Shown one piece after another: positions 1-13,005 of a stretch of DNA of 13,005 nt. The stretch is from Candidatus Sungbacteria bacterium RIFCSPLOWO2_01_FULL_47_10 (lineage in GTDB: Bacteria; Patescibacteriota; Minisyncoccia; Sungbacterales; GWA2-42-14). The notes beneath the pieces are model-generated. The model ran no database searches and was not told where the DNA came from. It saw only the letters and a list, made by a program, of their open reading frames with translations. Location: positions 5,605-18,609 of the forward strand of contig MHQO01000002.1 of assembly GCA_001820675.1 (NCBI GenBank), written 5' to 3'. Made by a program: the position numbers and the translations under genes. Positions within the stretch are counted from its first letter, which is position 1; each line of letters starts with the position of its first letter.

Positions 1-429
1 ATCGCCGCCCAATCCTCGGCATCTTTTCCGCCCGCACCCGCAAATACGCTGATTACCGCGTTTCCTTTGTCGTAGGGGCCGGTGAAAAAAGTTTCGCGCT
101 CAAGCGCCAGGAATTCTTTTTCTGCGGCACATACTTTTTGGTGAATTTCCGCAATAAGCGATTCTTCTTCCGTAAGTTCTACAAGCTCTTTCAACTCGGC
201 TATTTCTTTAATCAAGGCCGAGACCCGTTCGGTTTCCCGTTTTAATTGCGCCAACCCCTGATTCGCGCGGGCCGCTTTCGCGTGATCCTGCCAAAAACCG
301 GGTTCGCGCATTGTTTCTTCAATTTTCAAAATTTCTTCGTGTTTTTTGGGTAACTCAAAGACGGTCCGCAAGGTTGCGGATTTTAATTTCCAATGCGCCG
401 ATTTTTTCCTGAAGTTCCTGTGAAATCAT
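1..429 (-). CDS. prfB: Peptide chain release factor 2, N-terminal part (cut by window edge), with programmed +1 frameshift
   Basis: RF2 recognises UGA and UAA stop codons on the ribosome and releases the finished protein. The zero frame opens with ATG at 429 and runs 24 codons (MISQELQEKI...NLADRL), then meets TGA at 357-355. Moving +1 at CTT-TGA-G continues as ELPKKHEEIL and on to the window edge through MREPGFWQDH, FFTGPYDKGN and FAGAGGKDAEDWA. The last of these matches the conserved AGAGGxEAxDWA segment of RF2. A short leader ending in CTT TGA followed by D/E-L is the classical RF2 arrangement, in which scarce RF2 favours slippage and so raises its own synthesis. The catalytic GGQ domain lies outside the window. 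The gene follows the tRNA on the same strand and has its own extended -10 promoter with no room for a Shine-Dalgarno site. The identification is firm; use of the frameshift is inferred from family knowledge. Confidence 0.95.
354..360 (-). other. Programmed +1 ribosomal frameshift site of prfB (CTTTGAG)
   Basis: CTT is codon 24 of the prfB leader and TGA is codon 25. Slipping one base forward on CTT reads GAG and restores the RF2 frame. The E. coli site is CTT TGA C with an AGGGGG element three bases upstream. Here the base after TGA is G, and the upstream stretch GCGGACCGT has no good Shine-Dalgarno-like element. Confidence 0.85.
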
Positions 430-435
430 AGAACA

Positions 436-444
436 ATTATACCA
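436..444 (-). promoter_or_regulatory. Extended -10 promoter of prfB (TGGTATAAT), leaderless
   Basis: A perfect TATAAT (441-436) is preceded by TGG, giving an extended -10. Six bases (TGTTCT) separate it from the ATG at 429, so transcription should begin at or next to the A of the start codon. No -35 box is obvious; the sequence 17 bases upstream is TTTCTT. Confidence 0.75.
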
Positions 445-464
445 TATGAAGACAAAAAAAGAAA

Positions 465-536
465 GCCGATGGTCGGATTCGAACCGACGACCCACGCTTT
501 ACGAAAGCGTTGCTCTGCCAGCTGAGCTACATCGGC
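465..536 (-). tRNA. tRNA-Thr (anticodon CGU)
   Basis: The 72-base sequence folds into a complete cloverleaf. The acceptor stem GCCGATG/CATCGGC is perfect. The D arm is GCTC...GAGC, the anticodon stem is ACGCT/AGCGT around loop TTCGTAA, the variable loop has five bases, and the T arm is GTCGG TTCGAAT CCGAC. The anticodon CGT (503-501) reads the threonine codon ACG. The 3' CCA is not encoded: the base after the acceptor stem is T, followed by TTC and a T-rich run that may help end transcription. CCA must be added by a tRNA nucleotidyltransferase. prfB begins 35 bases downstream on the same strand. Confidence 0.97.
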
Positions 537-546
537 GCCATCCTTT

Positions 547-575
547 GATATACCATATTTTTTGCTTAACGCCAA
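547..575 (-). promoter_or_regulatory. Promoter of the tRNA-Thr gene
   Basis: TTGGCG (575-570), a 17-base spacer and TATATC (552-547) with a TGG extension match a sigma-70-type promoter. The expected start site is a few bases upstream of the mature tRNA 5' end at 536. The core TATGGTATA is identical to those in front of prfB and the antitoxin gene. Confidence 0.65.
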
Positions 576-609
576 TCGCAGGATATCATTTTAACCGCTC
601 CGTGCCATT

Positions 610-618
610 TGTGGATAA
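610..618 (-). other. DnaA-box-like 9-mer (TTATCCACA)
   Basis: TGTGGATAA on the plus strand is the exact reverse complement of the canonical DnaA box. It sits in the gap between the tRNA and the gene ending at 711, next to a 14-bp hairpin. A second exact copy lies at 6583-6591, also intergenic. The sequence match is certain; the function is not. Confidence 0.35.
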
Positions 619-619
619 A

Positions 620-656
620 CAAGATCCGACCTTATCAAGAAAAAGGTCGGATCTTG
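620..656 (-). terminator. 14-bp hairpin downstream of the secreted-protein gene, probable terminator
   Basis: CAAGATCCGACC (620-631) pairs perfectly with GGTCGGATCTTG (645-656). Two further T-A pairs lengthen the stem to 14 bp around a 9-base loop. It lies about 55 bases past the stop codon of the minus-strand gene ending at 711. On that strand it is followed by TTTATCC, only a weak U-tract, so it may be an imperfect intrinsic terminator or a processing or stability hairpin. The rest of 537-710 holds the tRNA promoter and the DnaA-like site; I see nothing else there. Confidence 0.5.
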
Positions 657-710
657 GATGAAAATTGCTTGTATCCTTCCGTAATTCTTCATTCAGCATT
701 CATCATTCTT

Positions 711-1619
711 TTATGTCGGCGGAACTTCTTCGAATTCTCCGGGGATGGTTTCTTCCCTGTTGTCCGTAGGACTTGCGCACCCGATATCATCGGGGAAATC
801 AACATGCCCATCACCGTCATTATCCAATCCGTCATTACACTCTGCCAGGGAACAATATCGTTCGTCTTGGAGACGAAGAACCCCTGGCCCGCTATATGTG
901 CCGGAATAGGTGCAGGAGCCGGTATTAAGACCTACGCCTTCGACAGAAACACAAAGGCCAGCCTGACACGCATATCGATTCGCTTCGTCAGAGTCAAAAC
1001 CATTCGTGCAGCCCATATCCTCTAAGTCAATGAAATCATCGTCATCATCGTCAAAACCATTGGAACACGCGGTCTCGGCGGCAACATTCACGATAACGGT
1101 GTCAGACGGATTTGGTGTTCCGTTATTGCTCAAACAGCTTACTTGATATGTGTAGTCAGGCGGAGGAGCTGGCGGAGCAATATCCGCAAGCGGGCCGCTG
1201 TTGCCGATGGCTCCCGAATGTCCGGTGCCGCTACACGTTGCATTATCCGTCAACTCGCATGCCCCCCCTTTTTTTGTAACCGTGCACGATGAAGTATATG
1301 CGGACGTCCATGAAATTATCGCCGTTCCGTTATTCGCAATCGTAATCGGCCCATCCACGCCGTCTGCGGTAATTCGCGCAGTGGCGGGGGGTTCGGGAGG
1401 GGGAGCAGAACACTCTCCCCCCTTATGCTCATAACTTGGGCATGAGGCGGGTATCAACAAGCCACCGGCCCTACCCAAAGGAGATTCGGAAGCAAACCCG
1501 ACTTCTATCGAATGAGAAAGCGGTGGCATGACAGATGATTCCCGAAAACTCGAAAAAAGCGCAAGTCCGAGAGACGCAGTTAAAACCGTCAGACCGAAAT
1601 AAAAAAGATATCGAAGCAT
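711..1619 (-). CDS. Secreted Cys-rich protein with Ig-like domain and Asp-rich calcium-type repeats
   Basis: The product has 302 residues. Residues 1-25 are a hydrophobic signal or anchor segment. A Pro-rich linker (72-79) leads to an Ig-like region (about 80-180) containing ADGVDGPITI...ISWTS...C, a pattern I associate with surface proteins of Parcubacteria. The C-terminal part carries acidic repeats: CSNGFDDDDDDFIDLEDMGC (185-204), CTNGFDSDEANR (204-215) and CNDGLDNDGDGHVDFPDDIGC (from 261). These resemble the DxDxDG loops that bind calcium in thrombospondin type-3-like repeats. Fourteen cysteines suggest disulfides outside the membrane. It is probably exported and surface-exposed; its specific role is unknown. 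It is last in the minus-strand block and has its own likely promoter at 1626-1654. Confidence 0.85.
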   Translation of the reverse strand: MLRYLFYFGLTVLTASLGLALFSSFRESSVMPPLSHSIEVGFASESPLGRAGGLLIPASCPSYEHKGGECSAPPPEPPATARITADGVDGPITIANNGTAIISWTSAYTSSCTVTKKGGACELTDNATCSGTGHSGAIGNSGPLADIAPPAPPPDYTYQVSCLSNNGTPNPSDTVIVNVAAETACSNGFDDDDDDFIDLEDMGCTNGFDSDEANRYACQAGLCVSVEGVGLNTGSCTYSGTYSGPGVLRLQDERYCSLAECNDGLDNDGDGHVDFPDDIGCASPTDNREETIPGEFEEVPPT

Positions 1620-1625
1620 ACTTCA

Positions 1626-1654
1626 ATACTAACGCTAGCGGCAAGACAAAACAA
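1626..1654 (-). promoter_or_regulatory. Likely leaderless promoter of the secreted-protein gene
   Basis: TTGTTT (1654-1649), a 17-base spacer and TAGTAT (1631-1626) are followed by six bases (TGAAGT) and the ATG at 1619. The spacing matches the other leaderless starts in the window. The upstream gene ends at 1699, so this gap of about 80 bases can hold an independent promoter. Confidence 0.5.
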
Positions 1655-1698
1655 ATTTATTATCAACAGCACAAATCAGCGGCCCGCCATCGCGCGCA

Positions 1699-2481
1699 TC
1701 ATTTCACCAGTCCAAGGTTGTATGTTATCGTTTCTTTCATCAACGCAAGACCGCGGCCTGCCAAACGCGGATCATTTCCCGGATAGGCCTTCATCCAGTC
1801 GGCCTCGTCAAGCCCGCCTGCAAGCGCCATTGCTTTTTCAAGGACACTACGCGCCTCATCGTTTCTCCCGAGATTCAATAGCGCTACACCGAGAGAAGTA
1901 AGAAGCCAGGCGTTTTCACCCGCGCGCTCCATACCTCTTCGCGCGGTTGCTTCCGCTTTCTCAAAATCGCCTTTCTGAAAATAAATCCACGCAAGGTCGT
2001 TGTGCGCCGCCCAATTTGCCGGGGACCACTCGAGAAATGCGTTAAAATCGCGCTCGGCCTCGTAAAAGTCGCGCCGATACCCGTAAATCAGCCCGCGGAT
2101 ATAAAAAGAAGCCATGAACGATTCGCCGTGAATGTCGATTTGTCTGTTGATTTTTTCAAGCGCGCCGTCCAAATTTCCGCGCAAGAAATCAATCCGGGCC
2201 AACTGATGCCATGCGTCGCGGATATTCGGGTCCGTATTCAGCGCGCGCATGAAATACTTCTCCGCCTCCGCAAGGTCATACGCGCCGCTATTCCTGACGT
2301 TAAAATAGTAATTGCCGATTTTGACGAAAAGCAGAGCGTCGTTCCTGTTCAGAGCCGTCGCGAGTTTTACAAACTGATATTCCTTCCATACAAATCGCGC
2401 AAGAGAATCGGAGTAGATAAATCCCACGCCGACAATTGCGGCAGAAAAAAGAATGGTTAAAATTTTATTTCGTCTCGCCAT
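1699..2481 (-). CDS. Membrane-anchored TPR protein (intact paralogue)
   Basis: The protein has 260 residues starting MARRNKILTI. A basic N-terminus and one transmembrane segment (about 7-24) are followed by five TPR-like helix pairs. They are near KIGNYYFNVRNSG...KYFMRALNTDPN, RDAWHQLARIDFLRGNLDGA, FYIRGLIYGYRRDFYEAERD, AAHNDLAWIYFQKGDFEKAE and WLLTSLGVALLNLGRNDEAR. TPR arrays bind protein partners, so this is probably a scaffold on the outer face of the membrane. A longer frame opens upstream at 2625 but crosses the hairpin repeats and encodes no plausible N-terminus, so I chose the ATG at 2481. CATAAC lies six bases before it, a weak version of the leaderless pattern. It is a close paralogue of the broken gene at 3508-3899: 141 bases align at about 91% identity. 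Confidence 0.85.
   Translation of the reverse strand: MARRNKILTILFSAAIVGVGFIYSDSLARFVWKEYQFVKLATALNRNDALLFVKIGNYYFNVRNSGAYDLAEAEKYFMRALNTDPNIRDAWHQLARIDFLRGNLDGALEKINRQIDIHGESFMASFYIRGLIYGYRRDFYEAERDFNAFLEWSPANWAAHNDLAWIYFQKGDFEKAEATARRGMERAGENAWLLTSLGVALLNLGRNDEARSVLEKAMALAGGLDEADWMKAYPGNDPRLAGRGLALMKETITYNLGLVK
2203..2343 (-). repeat. Duplicated TPR segment, copy in the intact gene
   Basis: This 141-base stretch aligns without gaps to 3556-3696. By hand count 128 of 141 bases match. The first 68 bases (2203-2270) differ at one position only, while the next 25 or so differ at eleven. Such patchy identity suggests gene conversion or recent recombination between the two TPR genes. Confidence 0.85.
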
Positions 2482-2530
2482 GTCGGAGTTATGCTTGAGC
2501 CGTGTCCGGTGCGCGCACAATAAATCCCCC

Positions 2531-2610
2531 ACCACGGACTTACGTCCATGGTATGTATCTATGCGCTTTGCGACTGTCGGCAATTCATCTACGGGCTTAC
2601 ACCCGTGGAT
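2531..2610. repeat. Pair of covarying imperfect palindromes (REP/BIME-like)
   Basis: Hairpin 1 (2532-2551) is CCACGGAC-TTAC-GTCCATGG with one mismatch. Hairpin 2 (2587-2610) is ATCTACGGG-CTTACA-CCCGTGGAT with one G-T pair. The two 20-base cores match at 15 positions, share the loop CTTAC, and include a compensatory change in which an A-T pair in hairpin 1 is G-C in hairpin 2. They start 57 bases apart in the non-coding gap between the toxin stop (2618) and the intact TPR gene start (2481). The layout resembles REP elements mobilised by IS200-type (RAYT) transposases, but no transposase is in the window. Confidence 0.7.
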
Positions 2611-2617
2611 TTCCGCG

Positions 2618-3241
2618 CTATACAATCAGCCTCATCTTTCTTATTTCATTCCGAAAAAACGTTTCAAGAGTTTTCTTTTTAACTTCTTTTTTTATAAATG
2701 CAATCGGTGTTTCCTCTATGTCTTTCAAATATACAAGTTGTTCCAAAAATAATTTTTGGCTGAATTCCTTGTCGTATTTTTTCTCCGCACTCTTTATGAT
2801 TCGTTTAAGGGCGCGGCGGCTTTTGGAAATTATAAAATACAGATCGATATAATCCTTATATTCTGCTCTTCTCCCTATGGTATAGGCCTTAGTCGCGGCA
2901 ATTTCTTCAACGGTAAACATGTGTATTCCGTCGCCATGTATCGTGCGGTAGAGGGTCGGATAGGGATATGCCAGAAAAGTAATTTTCACGCCGTCAATCA
3001 AGACCGTAAGTTGGTCTTTGGAGTTGACAAGCGTTTTCAAGGAACATCCCTTAAAGACTCTTTTGGTTTTATCAAAAAGGGAGCGTGATATTTCCCCCTT
3101 GATAAAAAAATCAAAATCCACCGAAATTCGATGGCCAATTTCCAACGCCAACGCCGTCCCTCTGCCAAGAACGCATCCGTGAAAATTTTTAAGCTTTGGC
3201 AACAGTTTTCTTGCTTTTGATGTAAGAGCTTCGAGATGCAT
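2618..3241 (-). CDS. AbiEii-type nucleotidyltransferase toxin
   Basis: The 207-residue protein carries the signature of the AbiEii/MenA nucleotidyltransferases: GRGTALALEIGHR followed by ISVDFDFF (residues 26-46), with D42 and D44 as the likely metal-binding acidic pair. Downstream FTVEEIAATKAYTIGRRAEYKDYIDLY (109-135) fits the conserved middle of the family. Family members are toxins that block translation, in some cases by adding nucleotides to tRNA 3' ends. The start codon lies 53 bases inside the antitoxin gene, which implies translational coupling. The last codons abut the second hairpin of the 2531-2610 repeat. Base composition is clearly more AT- and Lys-rich than the intact TPR gene next door, consistent with horizontal acquisition. 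The family call is firm; the target is not known. Confidence 0.87.
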   Translation of the reverse strand: MHLEALTSKARKLLPKLKNFHGCVLGRGTALALEIGHRISVDFDFFIKGEISRSLFDKTKRVFKGCSLKTLVNSKDQLTVLIDGVKITFLAYPYPTLYRTIHGDGIHMFTVEEIAATKAYTIGRRAEYKDYIDLYFIISKSRRALKRIIKSAEKKYDKEFSQKLFLEQLVYLKDIEETPIAFIKKEVKKKTLETFFRNEIRKMRLIV

Positions 3242-3500
3242 ATTTCATTTTTTTGACCCCAAAAATGACTGCGGCAAGCGCAAGCGCGGCTGGGCGAAAT
3301 TCGCTTATCGGCGTGTTTTCAATGATGCGCCGGATGCGATCGCTTCCATACATGTCCGCAATCCGCACCCAATGTTTCCATTCGCCATAATTAATCGCCT
3401 GCACCACAACGATCTTTGCAAATTTTTCAACATCAAACCGTTTAAGGTCGTACGACCACAATATGTCTTTAACATATCCTGATTTTTTCTTTGTTCTCAT
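3189..3500 (-). CDS. Antitoxin partner of the AbiEii-type toxin (DUF6922-like)
   Basis: The product has 103 residues from MRTKKKSGYVKD. It contains DILWSYDLKRFDVEKF, VVVQAINYGEWKHWVRIADM and YGSDRIRRIIENT. This resembles, from memory, the small DUF6922-type proteins encoded just upstream of nucleotidyltransferase toxins (pattern LFWDxDxxKLD...ERVLxxGxxxDWxxLxxxYG). It is not the usual AbiEi winged-helix antitoxin. The position upstream of the toxin and the 53-base overlap support the pairing. The frame also opens earlier at 3533, but the TATAAT box sits between, so I chose the ATG at 3500, six bases after that box. A function as protein antitoxin is inferred. Confidence 0.72.
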   Translation of the reverse strand: MRTKKKSGYVKDILWSYDLKRFDVEKFAKIVVVQAINYGEWKHWVRIADMYGSDRIRRIIENTPISEFRPAALALAAVIFGVKKMKYASRSSYIKSKKTVAKA

Positions 3501-3506
3501 GTCTTT

Positions 3507-3535
3507 ATTATACCATAGCAAAATCATCAGCACAA
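3507..3535 (-). promoter_or_regulatory. Promoter of the toxin-antitoxin operon, leaderless
   Basis: TTGTGC (3535-3530), a 17-base spacer ending in TGG and a perfect TATAAT (3512-3507) form an extended -10 promoter. AAAGAC then separates it from the ATG at 3500. The 11-mer TATGGTATAAT is identical to that of the prfB promoter. It lies inside the 3' remnant of the broken TPR gene, whose stop codon overlaps the box. Confidence 0.75.
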
Positions 3536-3899
3536 TACCATCGCCAATTCCCGAGCTGATGCCATGCGTCGCGGATATTCGGATCCGTATTCAGCGCGCG
3601 CATGAAATACTTCTCCGCCTCCGTTAAATTATAGATGCCGCTGTTTTTGACGTTAAAATAATAATTGCCGATTTTGACGAAAAGCAGAGCGTCGTTGCGA
3701 TTAAAAATGACAGCCAAGCGCACGCTGTAATGTCGTTCCCATGCCCAACGAGCAAAAATATCCGAATAATAATAACCGCCAATGAGAATAATCACAAAAA
3801 AAACAAATTTATAAAAATGATCCTTCTTTTCACTCTTTCAAAAAATTTCCACGCAAATACAATAAAACCCATCAGCGAAAAGGCTTGGGTCGCCTGCAT
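3508..3899 (-). pseudogene. Broken TPR paralogue: 5' frameshift and 3' truncation at the toxin-antitoxin module
   Basis: From 3795 downward the frame reads VIILIGGYYYSDIFARW...NDALLFVKIGNYYFNVKNSG...KYFMRALNTDPNIRDAWHQL, clearly homologous to the intact gene at 1699-2481. After HQL (about 3556) homology stops abruptly and an unrelated tail runs to TAA at 3510-3508. Upstream, another frame reads VKRRIIFINLFF from a GTG at 3833, then hits TGA after a run of eight T (3803-3796). One extra T would join the frames, and the distance to YSD (25 residues) would equal that of the intact paralogue. The upper frame also extends back to an ATG at 3899 preceded by TATAAG. The gene has therefore lost its 3' part and probably one base in a homopolymer. 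A sequencing error in the T run cannot be excluded; the truncation is independent of it. Confidence 0.8.
3556..3696 (-). repeat. Duplicated TPR segment, copy in the broken gene
   Basis: This is the counterpart of 2203-2343, with 128 of 141 bases matching. The identity ends sharply at 3556, where the sequence joins the toxin-antitoxin promoter region. That marks the probable left boundary of the inserted or recombined segment. Confidence 0.85.
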
Positions 3900-3905
3900 G
3901 AATCT

Positions 3906-3911
3906 CTTATA
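3906..3911 (-). promoter_or_regulatory. Possible -10 box of the broken TPR gene
   Basis: TATAAG lies six bases (AGATTC) before the ATG at 3899, matching the leaderless spacing elsewhere in the window. No -35 box is visible. It is in the short gap after the TPR gene ending at 3936. Confidence 0.35.
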
Positions 3912-3935
3912 TTACCGATTATCATCGATACCTTG

Positions 3936-5024
3936 TTATCGCCCCAAAGCTCTTTTAAAATCATCTCTATTTCTCAAAATAAAGATAGTGTGTTCCGGCA
4001 TCTCATCAGTCTCCTTGAGATAACTTCTCATAAAGTTATCCGCCTCCGATTTGTTTCCCAACTTTGCGTTTCCTTCTGCGAACACAAAAAGGCACGCAAA
4101 ACGCAAATCTCCCTCAACACCCAAAGCGCCTTCTGCGCGCATGACGGCCCGCACGGGATCACCGCCCTCCAACAACGCAGTTGCAAAAATACAGTTAGCT
4201 CCGTCTTTCGGATTCGATAATTTTGAAATTTTTTCAAGTTCCGCTTCTGCCGAAGTAAAATCCTTTTTATATCCATATATGATGGCGCGTACCCCGCGCA
4301 CGATGTATATAAATCTATCAACCTTGCCATTGCTTGCTCTCAGAGCAAGTTCCGAATATTTCCATGCGTTATCATAATCCTTTAAGAAATAAAAAAGCTG
4401 TGAAAGCAAGGAATACCCTCTGTAATAATACCGCTCCTGCCCGTCGCGGGAATCAAACGCCGGAAGCAACAGATCAATCGCATCCTGCGGCTTGTTGAAC
4501 CGCTCGAAATAATCAACCGCAACGAAATATCGCGCATTAAAGGACAGATCGGGAAATAACTCGATTTTTTTCAGATATACCGCATCCCCTTTTTCATATT
4601 CCCCGATCTGCCGGTATGAAAAACCGAGGTTATTTAAGGTTCTTCGATGGGTGTCGGTGTCTTTCTTTTCAATTCCGTATTCAAGCGCTTTTTCATAATA
4701 AGTAACCGCGTTCGCATAATCCGCTTCCGGGAGGTAATACACGATCCCGCCATCCGTCTCAACCGCAATGCTTATCTGCCCTAAATAAAAATATGCCTCG
4801 GGGAGCCTTTGATTTAACTCAACCGATTTTTTCAGATAGAGTCGCGCGTTTGTAAAATCATCCTTCAAAAAATATTCCACTCCTTTCTGAAGGTATGAAG
4901 AAGCGATATATCCCTTCACCACAAAAAAAGACGCGAGAAGAACGGCAAGGATCGCGATGCCGATTCCAACCCAGATTATTTTTTTGTTTTTTCGTTCGTT
5001 TTCCATGTGTATTTGGAAAAACAT
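3936..5024 (-). CDS. Membrane-anchored TPR protein
   Basis: The protein has 362 residues. A Lys-rich N-terminus precedes one transmembrane helix (about 15-37), followed by a TPR array. Repeats include YLQKGVEYFLKDDFTNARLY, AYFYLGQISIA, ANAVTYYEKALEYG, LNNLGFSYRQIGEYEKGDAV, LFYFLKDYDNAWKYSELALR and VRAIIYGYKKDFTSAEAELE. The motif YGYKKDFTSAE echoes YGYRRDFYEAE in the gene at 1699-2481, so the TPR genes in this block share ancestry. The start is two bases after the stop of the upstream gene (TAA AT ATG), which suggests coupled translation and a shared task. An in-frame ATG at 5006 would give the cleaner N-terminus MENERKNKK. Probably a membrane scaffold facing outwards; partner unknown. Confidence 0.85.
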   Translation of the reverse strand: MFFQIHMENERKNKKIIWVGIGIAILAVLLASFFVVKGYIASSYLQKGVEYFLKDDFTNARLYLKKSVELNQRLPEAYFYLGQISIAVETDGGIVYYLPEADYANAVTYYEKALEYGIEKKDTDTHRRTLNNLGFSYRQIGEYEKGDAVYLKKIELFPDLSFNARYFVAVDYFERFNKPQDAIDLLLPAFDSRDGQERYYYRGYSLLSQLFYFLKDYDNAWKYSELALRASNGKVDRFIYIVRGVRAIIYGYKKDFTSAEAELEKISKLSNPKDGANCIFATALLEGGDPVRAVMRAEGALGVEGDLRFACLFVFAEGNAKLGNKSEADNFMRSYLKETDEMPEHTIFILRNRDDFKRALGR

Positions 5025-5026
5025 AT

Positions 5027-6523
5027 TTACCGATAATCCCGAAGCGAAACGAGCGAGGCCAGTCGCTCTTTCGCCTCATCGGGAATCCGGCTCCGCCAAT
5101 CTCCGGCAATTCGCGCATTTTCATCACGAAGCGCCGAATAAAATCCTGATGCCCTGAAAAGATATGTTTCTTTTTCGTCTTTATTCGGTATCTTCCCGGA
5201 CGCCCGGAACTCGAGATTGACCGTATCGCCCGGAATCGTCTGAACATATTCGCCCTTCCGTGTTTTTGACAACACGCCCACGACATCACGATCTAACCTG
5301 TTGTGGTGCGCACGCTCGAGTTGAAGTTTTTCTTCCGTAAAAGCGCGAGAGGACTTCTTGAGGTCCCGTTCCTGAATCACACCGAGAAATCCCAGCGCGT
5401 GTTTTTTTGATGAACGGATGCGAACCCGCATCTCGCCGTTCTCCATGATTGCCTGCATAGGAAATTCGATAACTTCTGTATTCATTTTCCATGAACGGAC
5501 ATCGGCAACCGCAACCCTCTCATATTCACCCGATGCATCTCGATATTCAACCACAAGGCAACAGCCGCCCTGTGTCCCAAAGACCATTGGTGTTAAGATA
5601 AGCGCGGAACCGTTAAAACCGAGTTTCTCAAAAAACCACACCCCAAAAACCGCAGTAGCCACCGCAGCCATCTTGACGAACATTTTCGACTTCACAAGAG
5701 GATAAGACGAAACCGACCGTTCCTCTTGCCAATCCCGCTCCATTCCCAACACCCAATCGCGGTACCACGACTTCATGACAAGATGGGGAATTTCCCCATG
5801 CTTCAAACCCCGAAATATCATTTCGATCTCCTGACCGGAATTTAAAAACGAGGCGTCATCAGTTTTGGAGGAATCCCTCCACGAAGCGCCTTTTTTTGAA
5901 AACTTTTCCGTCACGTCCTGCCCCGAAGAAGTTGTGACCGATGCGGGCAAAATCACGTTCTTTTCAAAAACAGATTTTTCAACCACATAGTATTTTTTAA
6001 ACTCGGAATCAACAACCACTTCCGAATTTTCCGGATGAATGACCCGAAGAAGTTCGAGCCACGAAAAATAACTTTCTTCCGGCTCAATTTCCTGAATCTG
6101 AAACCTTAATTTCCCGCCATGAGGGCGGATCGGCGCGTTAATTTTATATAAATCGGGATAAATTCTCCCGTCTTCATAGAGGGAACGCGCGATCCGATAT
6201 ACCGGATAATAACTTTTTGGTTTTCCGAAAAGGATGTCGTTTTCGATAATAAATTTCTTTCCGTCCGAATATGCCAGAAACGGAGTCGAGCTTCCGCCCG
6301 GCACATCCGCCAGCGCGTGATCCGCGCCGAACAAGTCTCCCGAATCGGGATTTTTTGCCTGATGCTTCTTTCCCTTAATGAGGTTGGAAACGTTCACAAA
6401 CGCCCACCCGACCGCGACAAGCAAAATTAAAAGGAACACTTTGGAAAGAAACGAGAAAAAAGAAAAGATTTTTTTCATAATATAAGATTCTTTGCGGGAG
6501 AACGTATGGAGTTCCCCACGCAT
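5027..6523 (-). CDS. Membrane protein of unknown function, large extracytoplasmic region
   Basis: I do not recognise this 498-residue protein. A strong hydrophobic helix lies at about 20-43 (MKKIFSFFSFLSKVFLLILL lies within it and just before), and further hydrophobic stretches lie at about 282-316. The section between is polar, with YYPVYRIARSLYEDGRIYPD (105-124), DGKKFIIENDILFG and VVVDSEFKKYYVVEKSVFEK, and is probably outside the cytoplasm. The C-terminal part is rich in charged beta-like segments. Two starts are possible. ATG 6523 has TTGGGA-18-TAAAAT and a six-base gap before it, matching other leaderless starts, so I use it. ATG 6478 gives the more usual N-terminus MKKIFSFF. The gene is coupled to the following TPR gene, so the two products may form a complex. 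Confidence 0.75.
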   Translation of the reverse strand: MRGELHTFSRKESYIMKKIFSFFSFLSKVFLLILLVAVGWAFVNVSNLIKGKKHQAKNPDSGDLFGADHALADVPGGSSTPFLAYSDGKKFIIENDILFGKPKSYYPVYRIARSLYEDGRIYPDLYKINAPIRPHGGKLRFQIQEIEPEESYFSWLELLRVIHPENSEVVVDSEFKKYYVVEKSVFEKNVILPASVTTSSGQDVTEKFSKKGASWRDSSKTDDASFLNSGQEIEMIFRGLKHGEIPHLVMKSWYRDWVLGMERDWQEERSVSSYPLVKSKMFVKMAAVATAVFGVWFFEKLGFNGSALILTPMVFGTQGGCCLVVEYRDASGEYERVAVADVRSWKMNTEVIEFPMQAIMENGEMRVRIRSSKKHALGFLGVIQERDLKKSSRAFTEEKLQLERAHHNRLDRDVVGVLSKTRKGEYVQTIPGDTVNLEFRASGKIPNKDEKETYLFRASGFYSALRDENARIAGDWRSRIPDEAKERLASLVSLRDYR

Positions 6524-6529
6524 GAGAAC

Positions 6530-6559
6530 ATTTTATCCTTCACCGTCATCATATCCCAA
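6530..6559 (-). promoter_or_regulatory. Promoter of the 5027-6523 / 3936-5024 operon
   Basis: TTGGGA (6559-6554), an 18-base spacer and TAAAAT (6535-6530) are followed by GTTCTC and the ATG at 6523. If the true start codon is 6478, this promoter would instead give a leader of about 45 bases. Confidence 0.5.
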
Positions 6560-6582
6560 ATTCAATGCGAAGCAAGCGCCCT

Positions 6583-6591
6583 TTATCCACA
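6583..6591 (+). other. DnaA-box-like 9-mer (TTATCCACA) in the divergent intergenic region
   Basis: It exactly matches the canonical DnaA box and lies between the divergent starts at 6523 and 6656. The surrounding TTTATCCACAAA is a 12-base match to the minus strand at the other copy (610-618). Confidence 0.35.
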
Positions 6592-6619
6592 AAATAAGCC
6601 CGCACGTTTACTGCGCACC

Positions 6620-6649
6620 TTGCGCCACCATCGTTTTTTCGATTACACT
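6620..6649 (+). promoter_or_regulatory. Promoter of the glycan operon, leaderless
   Basis: TTGCGC (6620-6625), an 18-base spacer and TACACT (6644-6649) precede the ATG at 6656 by six bases (TGTGGT). This is the only visible promoter for the four plus-strand genes. Confidence 0.55.
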
Positions 6650-6655
6650 TGTGGT

Positions 6656-7525
6656 ATGAAAATACTCGTTATCGGGGGGTCGCGCTTTATTGGCCCCCGC
6701 CTCCTTGATATACTGATCAAAAACAAACACGATATCACCGTATTCAACAAGGGCTCCATCCGGACGCGTTATGAAAAAAAAGTTCGATTCGTTAAAGGAG
6801 ATCGGAGGAAAGAATTTCCGTTTCGGGAGCGGTTTGACGCCGTCATCGATACCTGCGCGTATCGCGGCGAAGACACGGCGGCGGCAATAAACCAAATTGA
6901 GTGTGATTTTTTCCTTCATATCGGAACGGTTGCGGTGTATCAAAAATCGGAAATTTTTCCGCTTACCGAACATTCTCCAATCGGCACATGGCCGCTCTGG
7001 GGTGAATACAACAAGGGCAAAATTGAATGCGAACACATCCTGAAAACGTCCGGTATTTCGTATGCGATCCTGCGGCCGGTATATATTCTCGGTCCGAAAA
7101 ACTACATTGACCGCGAACGATTCATTTACGCGAAACTCGCAAAAAAAGAAACGGTTGTTCTTCCCGGAAACGGACAGTCGCTCATTCAGTTTGTCCACGT
7201 AGACGATGTCGCGCGCTCGCTTGCCCTCATCGCGGAAAAAAAGGGGGAAGGAGCATATAACTGTGTGTCTGACGAAGCGGTCACACTGAAAGGACTGGTC
7301 GAGCTGATGGCAGAAATTTCGGGACAAAAAGCGCGCATAGCGTTTGACGCCGCAAAAGACGGAGTAGGATTTAACGAACGCGAATTTCCTTTTGCGAACG
7401 AAACCATGGTGTGCTCAAACGAAAAAATTAAAAAGGCGTTGAATATGCACTTTATGAATCTCAGGGAATGGCTGAAAATCGATTATGAAAATTATTACAA
7501 ATTTCAAGTTCTGAAATCAAAATGA
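6656..7525 (+). CDS. NAD(P)-dependent epimerase/dehydratase (extended SDR)
   Basis: The protein has 289 residues with a Rossmann fold. The nucleotide-binding loop is ILVIGGSRFIG (residues 3-13), a GGxxFIG form seen in atypical extended SDRs. The catalytic pair YxxxK is Y118 and K122 (EYNKGK), with T91 in HIGTVAVY as the likely third residue. RPVYILGPKNY and FVHVDDVARSLALI are typical of sugar-nucleotide epimerases. It probably remodels an NDP-sugar in the cytoplasm for the glycan made by this operon; the exact substrate cannot be read. The same frame is open back to 6506, but that stretch covers the promoter and encodes no SDR sequence, so ATG 6656 is the start. Its stop overlaps the next start by four bases (ATGA). 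Confidence 0.88.
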   Translation: MKILVIGGSRFIGPRLLDILIKNKHDITVFNKGSIRTRYEKKVRFVKGDRRKEFPFRERFDAVIDTCAYRGEDTAAAINQIECDFFLHIGTVAVYQKSEIFPLTEHSPIGTWPLWGEYNKGKIECEHILKTSGISYAILRPVYILGPKNYIDRERFIYAKLAKKETVVLPGNGQSLIQFVHVDDVARSLALIAEKKGEGAYNCVSDEAVTLKGLVELMAEISGQKARIAFDAAKDGVGFNEREFPFANETMVCSNEKIKKALNMHFMNLREWLKIDYENYYKFQVLKSK

Positions 7526-12668: not shown

Positions 12669-13005
12669 GTTTCCCGTTCAAATTGGTTTCTCGCAGAAAC
12701 GTCGGCGTTTTGCCAGACGCATTAGGACTAATCCCGGAAACCTTTTCTAACGCGATAATCGATTTCTGCCCGATAATATTTCGAAGCATATCGAGAAGTG
12801 GCGTATCAAGTCCCGGCTCATATTTCCGTCCCGGCACGAATCGAAATGTATAAACACCCGGTTTTTCTTCCACAAGCTGAAATTGTAAAATGGTCACTGC
12901 AAACCGCTTCGCAATCTCGGTTCCAAACCCGGCAACGCTAAAGGATTTTCCGGATGGCGTAGTTATAACTTCCGGCAATCTCCCCTTCAACACAAGCACG
13001 GGGAT
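12661..13005 (-). CDS. PaaK/CapK-like adenylate-forming ligase, C-terminal part (cut by window edge)
   Basis: The visible 114 residues have no start inside the window; the frame runs through the edge. GRLPEVITTPSGKSFSVAGF matches the hinge and C-terminal subdomain of phenylacetate-CoA ligase-like enzymes (pattern GRxxDxIxxPxGxxxSP). TILQFQLVEEKPGVYTFRFV continues the C-terminal fold, and ASGKTPTFLRE resembles the terminal SGKxRxxxRE with the late catalytic lysine. PaaK-like proteins of the CapK group occur in capsule and O-antigen loci, where their substrates are mostly unknown. The eight-base overlap with the aminotransferase gene suggests both act on the same glycan precursor, for example amination followed by acylation. 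The N-terminal ATP-binding domain is outside the window, so confidence is moderate. Confidence 0.72.
   Translation of the reverse strand: MPVLVLKGRLPEVITTPSGKSFSVAGFGTEIAKRFAVTILQFQLVEEKPGVYTFRFVPGRKYEPGLDTPLLDMLRNIIGQKSIIALEKVSGISPNASGKTPTFLRETNLNGKHE

Follow-up and report, generated by a model that had tools for sequence, protein, structure and literature searches.

In an order of tiny, uncultured bacteria that presumably comprises the Sungbacteria lineage and its kin within the Parcubacteria/Patescibacteria, TATAAT-like hexamers are enriched directly in front of start codons, and it is likely, at a probability of roughly 0.75, that these start-adjacent boxes give rise to leaderless or near-leaderless mRNAs from a considerable minority of the transcription units, within a translation system that operates largely without Shine-Dalgarno (SD) pairing. 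The boxes would act as sigma-70-type -10 elements, from which RNA polymerase would start at the start codon or at most ~3 bases before it. The starting point was a stretch of 13,005 nucleotides of Candidatus Sungbacteria bacterium RIFCSPLOWO2_01_FULL_47_10, which is referred to as the window, together with the original prediction that leaderless transcription is the apparent rule there.

Start-adjacent boxes in the window

Seven hexamers had been named in the window, each exactly 6 bases 5' of an ATG, and all seven placements are correct (Table 1), with five of the seven fitting TANNNT. The constant spacing that had been claimed for them is real at the seven named genes but partly a matter of selection, as six other window genes have no such box (the toxin-like gene at 3241, the TPR gene at 5006/5024, and the genes at 7522, 8281, 9146, and 12668). 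Among the 13 window genes with readable upstream sequence (a 14th, at 12999, has none), TANNNT is found at the single 6-base offset in five (p = 1e-5) and, when the membrane gene is excluded, in four (p = 2e-4), in both cases against a per-offset rate of 2.5%, which is the rate at orthologue-supported starts. The absence of a convincing SD site from all window genes was borne out by inspection by eye.

Table 1. Location of the boxes and of the prfB elements in the window.
Feature	Position	Strand	Remark
prfB (release factor 2), 5' part	1..429	-	runs off the window; TIGR00020
prfB +1 frameshift site CTT TGA	355..360	-	codons 24 and 25
Hairpin TCCGCA-ACCT-TGCGGA in the prfB leader	365..380	-	ends 4 bases before the slip codon
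TATAAT, -10 box of prfB	436..441	-	6 bases before ATG (429)
tRNA-Thr(CGT)	464..536	-	same strand, directly upstream of prfB (34 bases)
TAGTAT, -10 box of the secreted-protein gene	1626..1631	-	ATG 1619; G002 homologue TATAAT-7-ATG
CATAAC, proposed as -10 box for the intact TPR gene	2488..2493	-	ATG 2481; unsupported
TATAAT, -10 box of the antitoxin gene	3507..3512	-	ATG 3500
TATAAG, before the broken TPR fragment	3906..3911	-	ATG 3899
TAAAAT, membrane protein	6530..6535	-	fits only start ATG 6523
TACACT, -10 box of the epimerase gene	6644..6649	+	ATG 6656

Comparison with related genomes of the order separates these sites. Orthologues support the boxes of prfB, where TANNNT with a gap of 6-7 bases to the start is present in 16 of 23 genes against a background of 0.62 per offset, and of the secreted-protein gene, while for the antitoxin no homologue was found in the stretches searched. 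The epimerase box is weakly supported, with TAAAAC (G002) and TAAGTC (G003), neither of them TANNNT, at the same place and none in G001. The box claimed for the intact TPR gene found no support in the comparison: G001 and G002 have starts near the homologous position without TANNNT at -15..-12, and the one TANNNT match in G003 goes with a start that lies 5 codons inside. Nor did the start of the membrane protein at 6523, since the homologues in G001, G002, and G003 all possess a start at the M that matches window position 6478. Translation thus probably begins at ATG 6478, where a -10 box at -12 is lacking. Two of the seven starts thus fail the homologue test, and one more, the broken TPR "gene", is a fragment of 35 codons. 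With the -10 boxes placed in this way, prfB, the antitoxin gene, the secreted-protein gene, and perhaps the epimerase gene are probably leaderless or nearly so.

It could also be argued that these mRNAs have leaders with promoters further upstream, and that prfB is co-transcribed with the tRNA-Thr gene and freed by tRNA 3' processing. The same-strand tRNA-Thr gene shortly before prfB, the tRNA-like 3' ends that by eye also precede prfB in G002, G011, and G012, and the poor -35 elements of all seven window sites (2 to 4 of 6 matches) point in this direction. However, no tRNA-like end was seen, again by eye only, just upstream of 12 of the 16 prfB genes with a box at gap 6-7, and when promoters that have a -35 match are pooled, they cluster at -15..-12 (68 at these four offsets, elsewhere ~5 per offset), so that we regard leaders as unlikely.

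The TANNNT peak across the order

When upstream regions from the order are aligned, as had been proposed, a TATAAT-like motif peaks at -12 and also at -13 to -15. The signal is weakened if each gene is assigned its first ATG, and therefore scans of candidate starts and then orthologue-supported starts were used. Among 228 starts from six genomes, which were chosen by orthology and not by motif, TANNNT lies 12-15 bases before the start in 62 against 22.5 expected, a net 17%, and exactly at -12 in 22 against 5.8 (p = 1e-7). The positional peak at the leaderless distance concerns a minority of genes and not the rule: the motif precedes 46 of 153 first genes (30%), where 18.3 (12%) would be expected, which is short of the majority that a dominant leaderless mode would take. 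The best motif of an unsupervised search was TAtAaT at -12 and -15, with a log-likelihood of 72.5 against 18.6-33.4 in ten single-base shuffles; the fraction of 75% given by the mixture fit was set aside as inflated, since the motif behind it was weak and scattered across many positions. The -15 peak does not hide starts 3 bases upstream, since none of 20 such genes has ATG, GTG, or TTG at -3.

In G000 alone, the box is present at 4 of 27 orthologue-supported starts, and a raw scan of this genome found TANNNT at -12 in 12 of 151 genes against 4.8 per offset, or net ~5% of genes. The gene finder was custom-written and overlooks some genes, with a coding fraction of 0.68 for G000 vs 0.85 for E. 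coli. G000 is probably a mixed bin, because it has another prfB, on C43, that shares only 44% identity with that of the window.

It is improbable, and already disfavoured, that the boxes are chance occurrences in AT-rich upstream DNA whose constancy comes from picking starts that fit. The background is high, at ~1.6-4.8% of genes per offset, and the failed starts and boxless genes of the window would agree with such an origin. So would a stray peak at -13 in E. coli, the negative control (6/72 vs 1.7), which means that small peaks near -12 arise without leaderlessness. At -12 itself, E. coli has the motif in 1 of 72 genes against 1.7 and the other control, D. deserti, in 7 of 52 against 0.5. 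Against chance stand the excess at -12 and at -15..-12 with starts set by orthology, the recurrence of the prfB box at gap 6-7, and the enrichment of -35 matches, which accompany 41% of 116 hexamers at -14..-12 vs 26% of 1513 controls (p = 0.001). Outside the order, one other member of the phylum was scanned, G038, which has an intact CCUCC and carries TANNNT at -14, -13, and -12 in 12, 9, and 11 genes, respectively, out of 151, with 2.1 expected per offset. Leaderless use as a consequence of anti-SD loss is thus not supported, as the signal of G038 is equal or stronger.

Loss of the anti-SD sequence and start context

The 16S 3' tail reads GGAACATTTCTTTTT. An examination of the 16S 3' end, which had been suggested along with the prediction, revealed that the anti-SD core is gone in the order: CCUCC occurs in 0 of 11 readable tails (12 of 23 genomes gave no readable tail), whereas 34 of the 38 tails that could be read in the rest of the phylum have it. 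Era reads the GAUCACCUCC tail of 16S, and no match to Era exceeded the cut-off in any of the 23 genomes of the order, vs 10 of 14 control genomes. At the orthologue-supported starts SD words are at background (7/228 vs 8.1) when all of these starts, boxed and boxless, are counted together. The wider gene set shows little excess of SD-like words in genes with sampled orthologues (33/398 vs 24.2) and an unexplained excess in genes without them (75/408 vs 27.7). Taken together, the lost CCUCC, the little or no SD excess in conserved genes, and the lack of an Era match above the cut-off suggest that SD pairing has largely been given up. In-operon starts are A-rich (46 starts; A at -6 0.50 and at -12 0.46, vs 0.27), and the other genes may be initiated by reinitiation in tight operons and from A-rich, SD-free start regions.

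That SD pairing persists in a new code, in which the tail UUUCUUU pairs with A-rich AAAGAAA-type sites, is disfavoured and very improbable: AAGAA-type words at -11..-6 are slightly in excess in G000 and G002 (5 of 55 orthologue-supported starts vs 0.7), but this looks like plain A-richness, because non-pairing words are equally enriched there (AACAA type 7/55 vs 1.3, AAAAA 8/55 vs 1.0), all six genomes together have pairing words in 11 of 228 against 6.4 and AACAA-type words in 15 against 5.0, and a hairpin instead of such a word stands at the prfB frameshift site. In favour of the new code, an excess of pairing words alone is seen in G016 (first-ATG starts, 10/120 vs 3.6; AACAA control unenriched, 2 vs 2.3).

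A hairpin at the prfB frameshift site

The prfB gene of the window continues in G000:C2 beyond masked bases. The TIGR00020 match at G000:C2 is split into one piece with 286.6 bits and another with 94.7 bits, neither of which reaches the cut-off alone. The prfB genes examined number 23 and come from 22 genomes, two of them from G000; G007, with a partial match below the cut-off, was left out. All 23 contain CTTTGA followed by the remainder of RF2 in the +1 frame, whereas none of the 23 has an SD-like stimulator three bases ahead of the slip codon, and one has an SD-like word before the start. The place of the stimulator is, as read from the sequences, occupied by a predicted hairpin that stops four bases short of the slip codon, with a stem of 6 bp in 22 of 23 genes and 4 bp in the remaining one (G002). 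The pairs are also present in G010, but the minimum-energy fold differs there. The arms covary across the genes, and a comparison with synonymous shuffles also supports the stem. A slip-like TTTTGA in L214, 18 bases from its start, was discarded as spurious.

Across the wider phylum, hairpin-type and SD-type prfB stimulators alternate. Five genomes outside the order were classed as hairpin-type and have a readable 16S (G032, G042, G043, G053, and G059), and all of them have CCUCC, which speaks against the hairpin being purely a result of anti-SD loss. Because of the alternation, the swap of the stimulator may have come first and may have made the anti-SD dispensable. We consider it somewhat more probable than not that the SD:anti-SD interaction has been dismantled in the order and that the autoregulatory frameshift of RF2 is driven by an intramolecular mRNA hairpin on the E-site side, instead of the SD:anti-SD duplex, on a leaderless mRNA.

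Relation to known systems

Actinobacteria and Deinococcus-Thermus with leaderless genes generally keep CCUCC. Leaderless genes of the TANNNT class are also reported for mycobacteria (PMC3898074). Such genes are given as ~20% in Actinobacteria and ~40% in Deinococcus-Thermus (Zheng 2011, PMC3160421; PMC12340547), with a leaderless share of 46.1% in D. radiodurans (PMC3160421), and like these groups the order has TANNNT ~12 bases before the start in a substantial minority. However, Deinococcus is described with a ribosome binding motif GGAG beside the -10 motif (PMC12340547), whereas the order has lost the anti-SD core and shows little or no SD excess at its conserved genes. With its low SD use and a 16S tail without CCUCC, the order resembles the "SD-scarce" organisms, whose table holds the phylum members Absconditabacteria, Campbellbacteria, Peribacter, and Wolfebacteria; the Sungbacteria lineage is absent from the main-text part of this table, the full list being in the supplement, and bacterial leaderless promoters and prfB are outside the scope of its section 21 (PMC10783764). 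For Bacteroidia, SD-free initiation is described with A at -3, -6, -12, and -13, and the in-operon starts of the order are likewise A-rich at -6, -12, and -13; yet Bacteroidia mostly keep a hidden CCUCC, which the order lost, and the Weeksellaceae with altered anti-SD are listed without the prfB frameshift, which the order retains (PMC8710568).

With CTTTGA in the 5' part and RF2 finished in the +1 frame, prfB follows the known programmed frameshift, but the SD-like element that is called hyper-conserved in the literature (PMC12421855), located three bases ahead of CTTT and with a consensus near AGGGGG, is missing from all 23 genes and a hairpin is present instead. A designed 12-bp hairpin, placed 5' of CUUUGA and next to the E site, reached ~60% of the SD-driven +1 shift with E. 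coli in vitro (Huang 2018, PMC6321510). Both hairpins lie near the E site, whereas that of the order is natural, covarying, and 6 bp long, and is a predicted stimulator. No report of a natural hairpin of this kind at prfB was found in the literature searched.

Implications

The lineage offers anti-SD-free initiation as a natural state for study, in which the remaining upstream signals, i.e., start-adjacent promoters, A-rich starts, and tight operons, are visible, and gene prediction that gives weight to SD sites may put starts in the wrong place in it. If the hairpin works, another duplex in the same position would be able to stand in for a stimulator described as hyper-conserved. This would support the view that an E-site-adjacent duplex, whatever its partner, drives the +1 shift.

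Probable loss of the Shine-Dalgarno role in prfB

The RF2 frameshift site CTT TGA of the window prfB lacks a Shine-Dalgarno (SD)-like element upstream and has a conserved hairpin in its place. In 23 prfB genes of the order (probably the Sungbacteria lineage and kin) the end of the stem lies four to five bases upstream of CTT. The stem has 6 bp and encloses a 4-base loop in 22 of them, and has 4 bp in G002, while in G010 the six pairs are present, but the minimum-energy fold is a different one. Both-side changes occur in three of the six pairs and 98.6% of cells pair, slid registers of the hairpin pair at most 51.4% of cells, and relatedness effects may contribute to this covariation; in G013 the arm letters differ and pairing is kept. 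In synonymous shuffles, which preserve the peptide and follow the gene's own codon use, the observed stability was reached by 0 to 17 of 300 per gene.

For the rest of the phylum, where 77 genomes had a match, 70 prfB 5' regions were examined, taken from 30 loci and 40 stretches, and the slip site is present in 24 of these regions. Assigned by eye from predicted folds, 10 of these 24 are SD-type, with AAGGAG or GGAGG placed three bases upstream of CTT, and 11 carry a hairpin whose end lies at roughly that position; the stem is weak in G064, and neither element nor hairpin is present in G040 and G081. The five uninterrupted stems (G042, G043, G071, G078, G080) gave 0 to 11 of 300 in the shuffle test, and the six interrupted ones (G028, G032, G053, G059, G061, G088), invisible to this test, are read from single-sequence folding only. 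G028 and G042 have AAGGA within the hairpin stem as well. Across the phylum, prfB genes alternate between the hairpin type and the SD type.

In an E. coli system, a hairpin designed to lie next to the E site, upstream of CUUUGA, is reported to reach about 60% of the +1 shift that the SD element drives (Huang 2018, PMC6321510), and Weeksellaceae, with an altered anti-SD, are described as having no prfB frameshift (McNutt 2021, PMC8710568). The SD-like prfB element was called hyper-conserved in a survey of 12,753 genomes (PMC12421855), in whose main text the terms hairpin, secondary structure and Patescibacteria do not occur. No natural prfB hairpin of this kind was recognised in searches of open-licence papers. 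The hairpin seems to have taken over the SD role in prfB.

The closest relative of the window prfB is that of G002, on a contig which also carries the secreted protein, two TPR genes and the membrane protein. A tRNA-Thr lies directly upstream of the window prfB, and tRNA-like 3' ends were seen by eye upstream of prfB also in G002, G011, and G012.

Coordinates of the features discussed (positions in the window unless stated otherwise)
Feature	Position	Strand	Remark
Window	5605-18609 of contig C2
prfB	1-429
prfB frameshift site and hairpin	355-380	-
tRNA-Thr	464-536	-
Putative nucleotidyltransferase-like toxin gene with antitoxin gene	2618-3500	-	the two genes overlap; antitoxin named so in the original prediction, the rest by eye
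Broken TPR duplicate	3508-3899	-	beside putative toxin/antitoxin genes, by eye
16S match in G000	925-4170 of locus L001 (G000:C5:20349-26018)		interrupted gene
Group I intron match in 16S	3113-3352 of locus L001

The 16S tail

The 16S tail is GGAACATTTCTTTTT in G000, the genome bin with the window, and GGATCACCTCCTTT in most of the phylum. At the 16S 3' end, where the original prediction had proposed to look for the anti-SD sequence, CCUCC is found in 0 of 11 readable tails of the order (11 of 23 genomes readable). Of 38 readable tails from the remainder of the phylum, 34 contain CCUCC; those without it are from G064 and G046, which belong to the same class as the order, G067, and G030. When public genomes were scanned for a helix-45 pattern requiring GGAACA and permitting CCUCC, 18 tails were obtained, including some from Candidatus Sungbacteria/Sungiibacteriota and other Parcubacteria, and CCUCC was in none of them. 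SD-type prfB occurs in 0 of 12 genomes with an altered tail and in 6 of 11 with CCUCC (p = 0.005, which ignores phylogeny; a single order supplies 11 of the 12).

Era is reported to bind GAUCACCUCC and to be lost in most of this phylum (PMC10582724); over the cut-off it was found in 0 of 23 genomes of the order, with weak matches only, and in 10 of 14 control genomes. Since CCUCC loss in other Patescibacteria is already published (PMC10783764), the loss in the order adds to a class already known. The 16S gene of G000 is interrupted and contains a group I intron match, and in several further members of the order, too, the 16S match is long or split.

16S tails in the order
Tail	Genomes
TTTCTTT	G000, G002, G003, G018
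TTTCCT	G004, G011, G012
AATTCTTT	G008, G021
AATCTTTT	G016
AACTCCTT (least changed)	G022

Probable start-adjacent promoters

The original prediction had taken leaderless transcription as the apparent rule, from -10 boxes six bases upstream of seven start codons. All seven hexamers are in place; five fit TANNNT, and TATAAG and CATAAC do not. TANNNT stands at that single offset in 5 of 13 window genes with readable upstream sequence (p = 1e-5 at a 2.5% rate). The start codons were compared with homologues in the relatives G001, G002, and G003. That of the secreted protein is supported by TATAAT-7-ATG in G002. The epimerase box has counterparts at the same place in G002 (TAAAAC) and G003 (TAAGTC), neither of them TANNNT, and none in G001. 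The box of the intact TPR gene is absent at nearby starts in G001 and G002; in G003, where the alignment stops short of the start, a candidate start five codons further in has one TANNNT before it. The membrane-protein start at 6523 (TAAAAT-6) is probably wrong, because all three homologues have a start at the residue matching window position 6478. The antitoxin had no match in the stretches searched. The broken TPR piece is 35 codons long.

The best case among the claimed boxes is prfB, the 5' part of which is readable in 23 genes from 22 genomes of the order, including two from G000, one of them on the doubtful contig C43. With the start whose leader comes closest to the mode of 22 codons, TANNNT ends 6 or 7 bases upstream in 16 of 23 (background 0.62 genes per offset), and in 12 of 23 at the same two offsets if the most upstream ATG is taken instead; an SD-like word precedes one of the 23. 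The box is missing there in G001, G003, G014, G015, G016, G019, and G020, with a TANNNT 10 bases away in G014, G015, and G016 and 9 bases away in G003.

Raw scan of candidate ATG starts of predicted genes (TANNNT at -12, mean per offset in brackets)
Genome	TANNNT	SD-like words
G000	12/151 (4.8)	25/151 vs 9.7
G002	10/138 (6.0)	14/138 vs 8.3
G008	11/124 (4.7)	21/124 vs 8.3
G016	11/120 (5.7)	16/120 vs 7.8
G020	10/133 (3.7)	5/133 vs 7.2
G022	8/140 (2.2)	27/140 vs 10.5
G038 (distant phylum member, intact anti-SD)	12, 9, 11 of 151 at -14, -13, -12 (2.1)	44/151 vs 13.7
E. coli (control)	1/72 (1.7); yet 6/72 at -13	32/72 vs 4.0
D. deserti (control)	7/52 (0.5)

Genome-wide, the expected TANNNT peak at the leaderless distance was found. 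Starts backed by an orthologue give a clearer picture: for 894 genes predicted in six genomes, a usable orthologue was available in 332 cases and supported the start in 228; of the latter, 62 have TANNNT at -15 to -12 (22.5 expected) and 7 an SD-like word (vs 8.1). The box precedes 46 of 153 first genes (vs 18.3) and 8 of 46 in-operon genes (vs 2.0); G000 by itself gives small numbers, with the box at 4 and SD at 1 of 27 supported starts. In an unsupervised motif fit TAtAaT at -12 and -15 was the best of three starting words, with a log-likelihood of 72.5 (others 63.6 and 55.5); ten single-base shuffles reached 18.6-33.4, and the stretch from -60 to -31 gave 32.4. At first genes of the six genomes, a -35 match of at least 4/6 accompanies TANNNT at -14 to -12 in 41% of 116 cases vs 26% of 1513 controls (p = 0.001). 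This effect is absent in G038 and D. deserti, and the -35 support therefore holds for the order only. Pooled promoters with a -35 match number 21 at -15, 16 at -14, 10 at -13, and 21 at -12, with 6 at -16 and 4 at -11.

A second TANNNT peak at -15 (20 of the 228 supported starts) nearly equals that at -12 (22). Its genes lack an alternative start 3 bases upstream, and it perhaps reflects 3-base leaders.

Taken together, raw scan, orthologue-supported starts, motif fit, and -35 matches argue that leaderless or near-leaderless promoters are very likely real in the order, but a minority. In our view the start-adjacent signal stands, but with 46 of 153 first genes its description as a rule was overstated. 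A literature search for leaderless genes in this phylum gave papers that use the term for other things, and PMC10434106 as a further match.

Residual SD-like words and other modes of initiation

The raw scan shows an excess of SD-like words in the scanned genomes of the order except G020, exceeded by that in G038 and E. coli. It lies mainly in genes without a sampled orthologue (75/408 vs 27.7) and little in those with one (33/398 vs 24.2); in G022 (stretches L077-L086) the values are 22/55 vs 3.5 and 5/85 vs 7.0, respectively. The excess in orthologue-less genes could come from contaminating contigs or recently acquired genes, and those of G022 may be acquired ones still carrying foreign SD sites. 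The G000 bin (1,097,321 bases, 84 contigs, 87% complete) is probably mixed with contigs of a second organism, because its second prfB on C43 (locus L047) has only 44% identity to the window prfB, a lower value than for the 21 further prfB genes above the cut-off in the order (49-79%). Both G000 prfB genes are hairpin-type. The residual excess counts against a purely SD-free picture.

SD pairing that co-evolved with the altered 16S tail is disfavoured, G016 being an exception. The 46 in-operon starts are A-rich (0.46 at -12, 0.43 at -13, and 0.50 at -6, vs 0.27), similar to what is described for Bacteroidia (PMC8710568), and 44 of 145 same-strand gaps fall within -20 to 30 bases. We therefore infer reinitiation and A-rich start regions as modes for the remaining genes.

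In our opinion it carries more weight that the SD system, its prfB role included, is lost or nearly so, and we think that start-adjacent promoters are one of several start modes in a lineage with little SD pairing.
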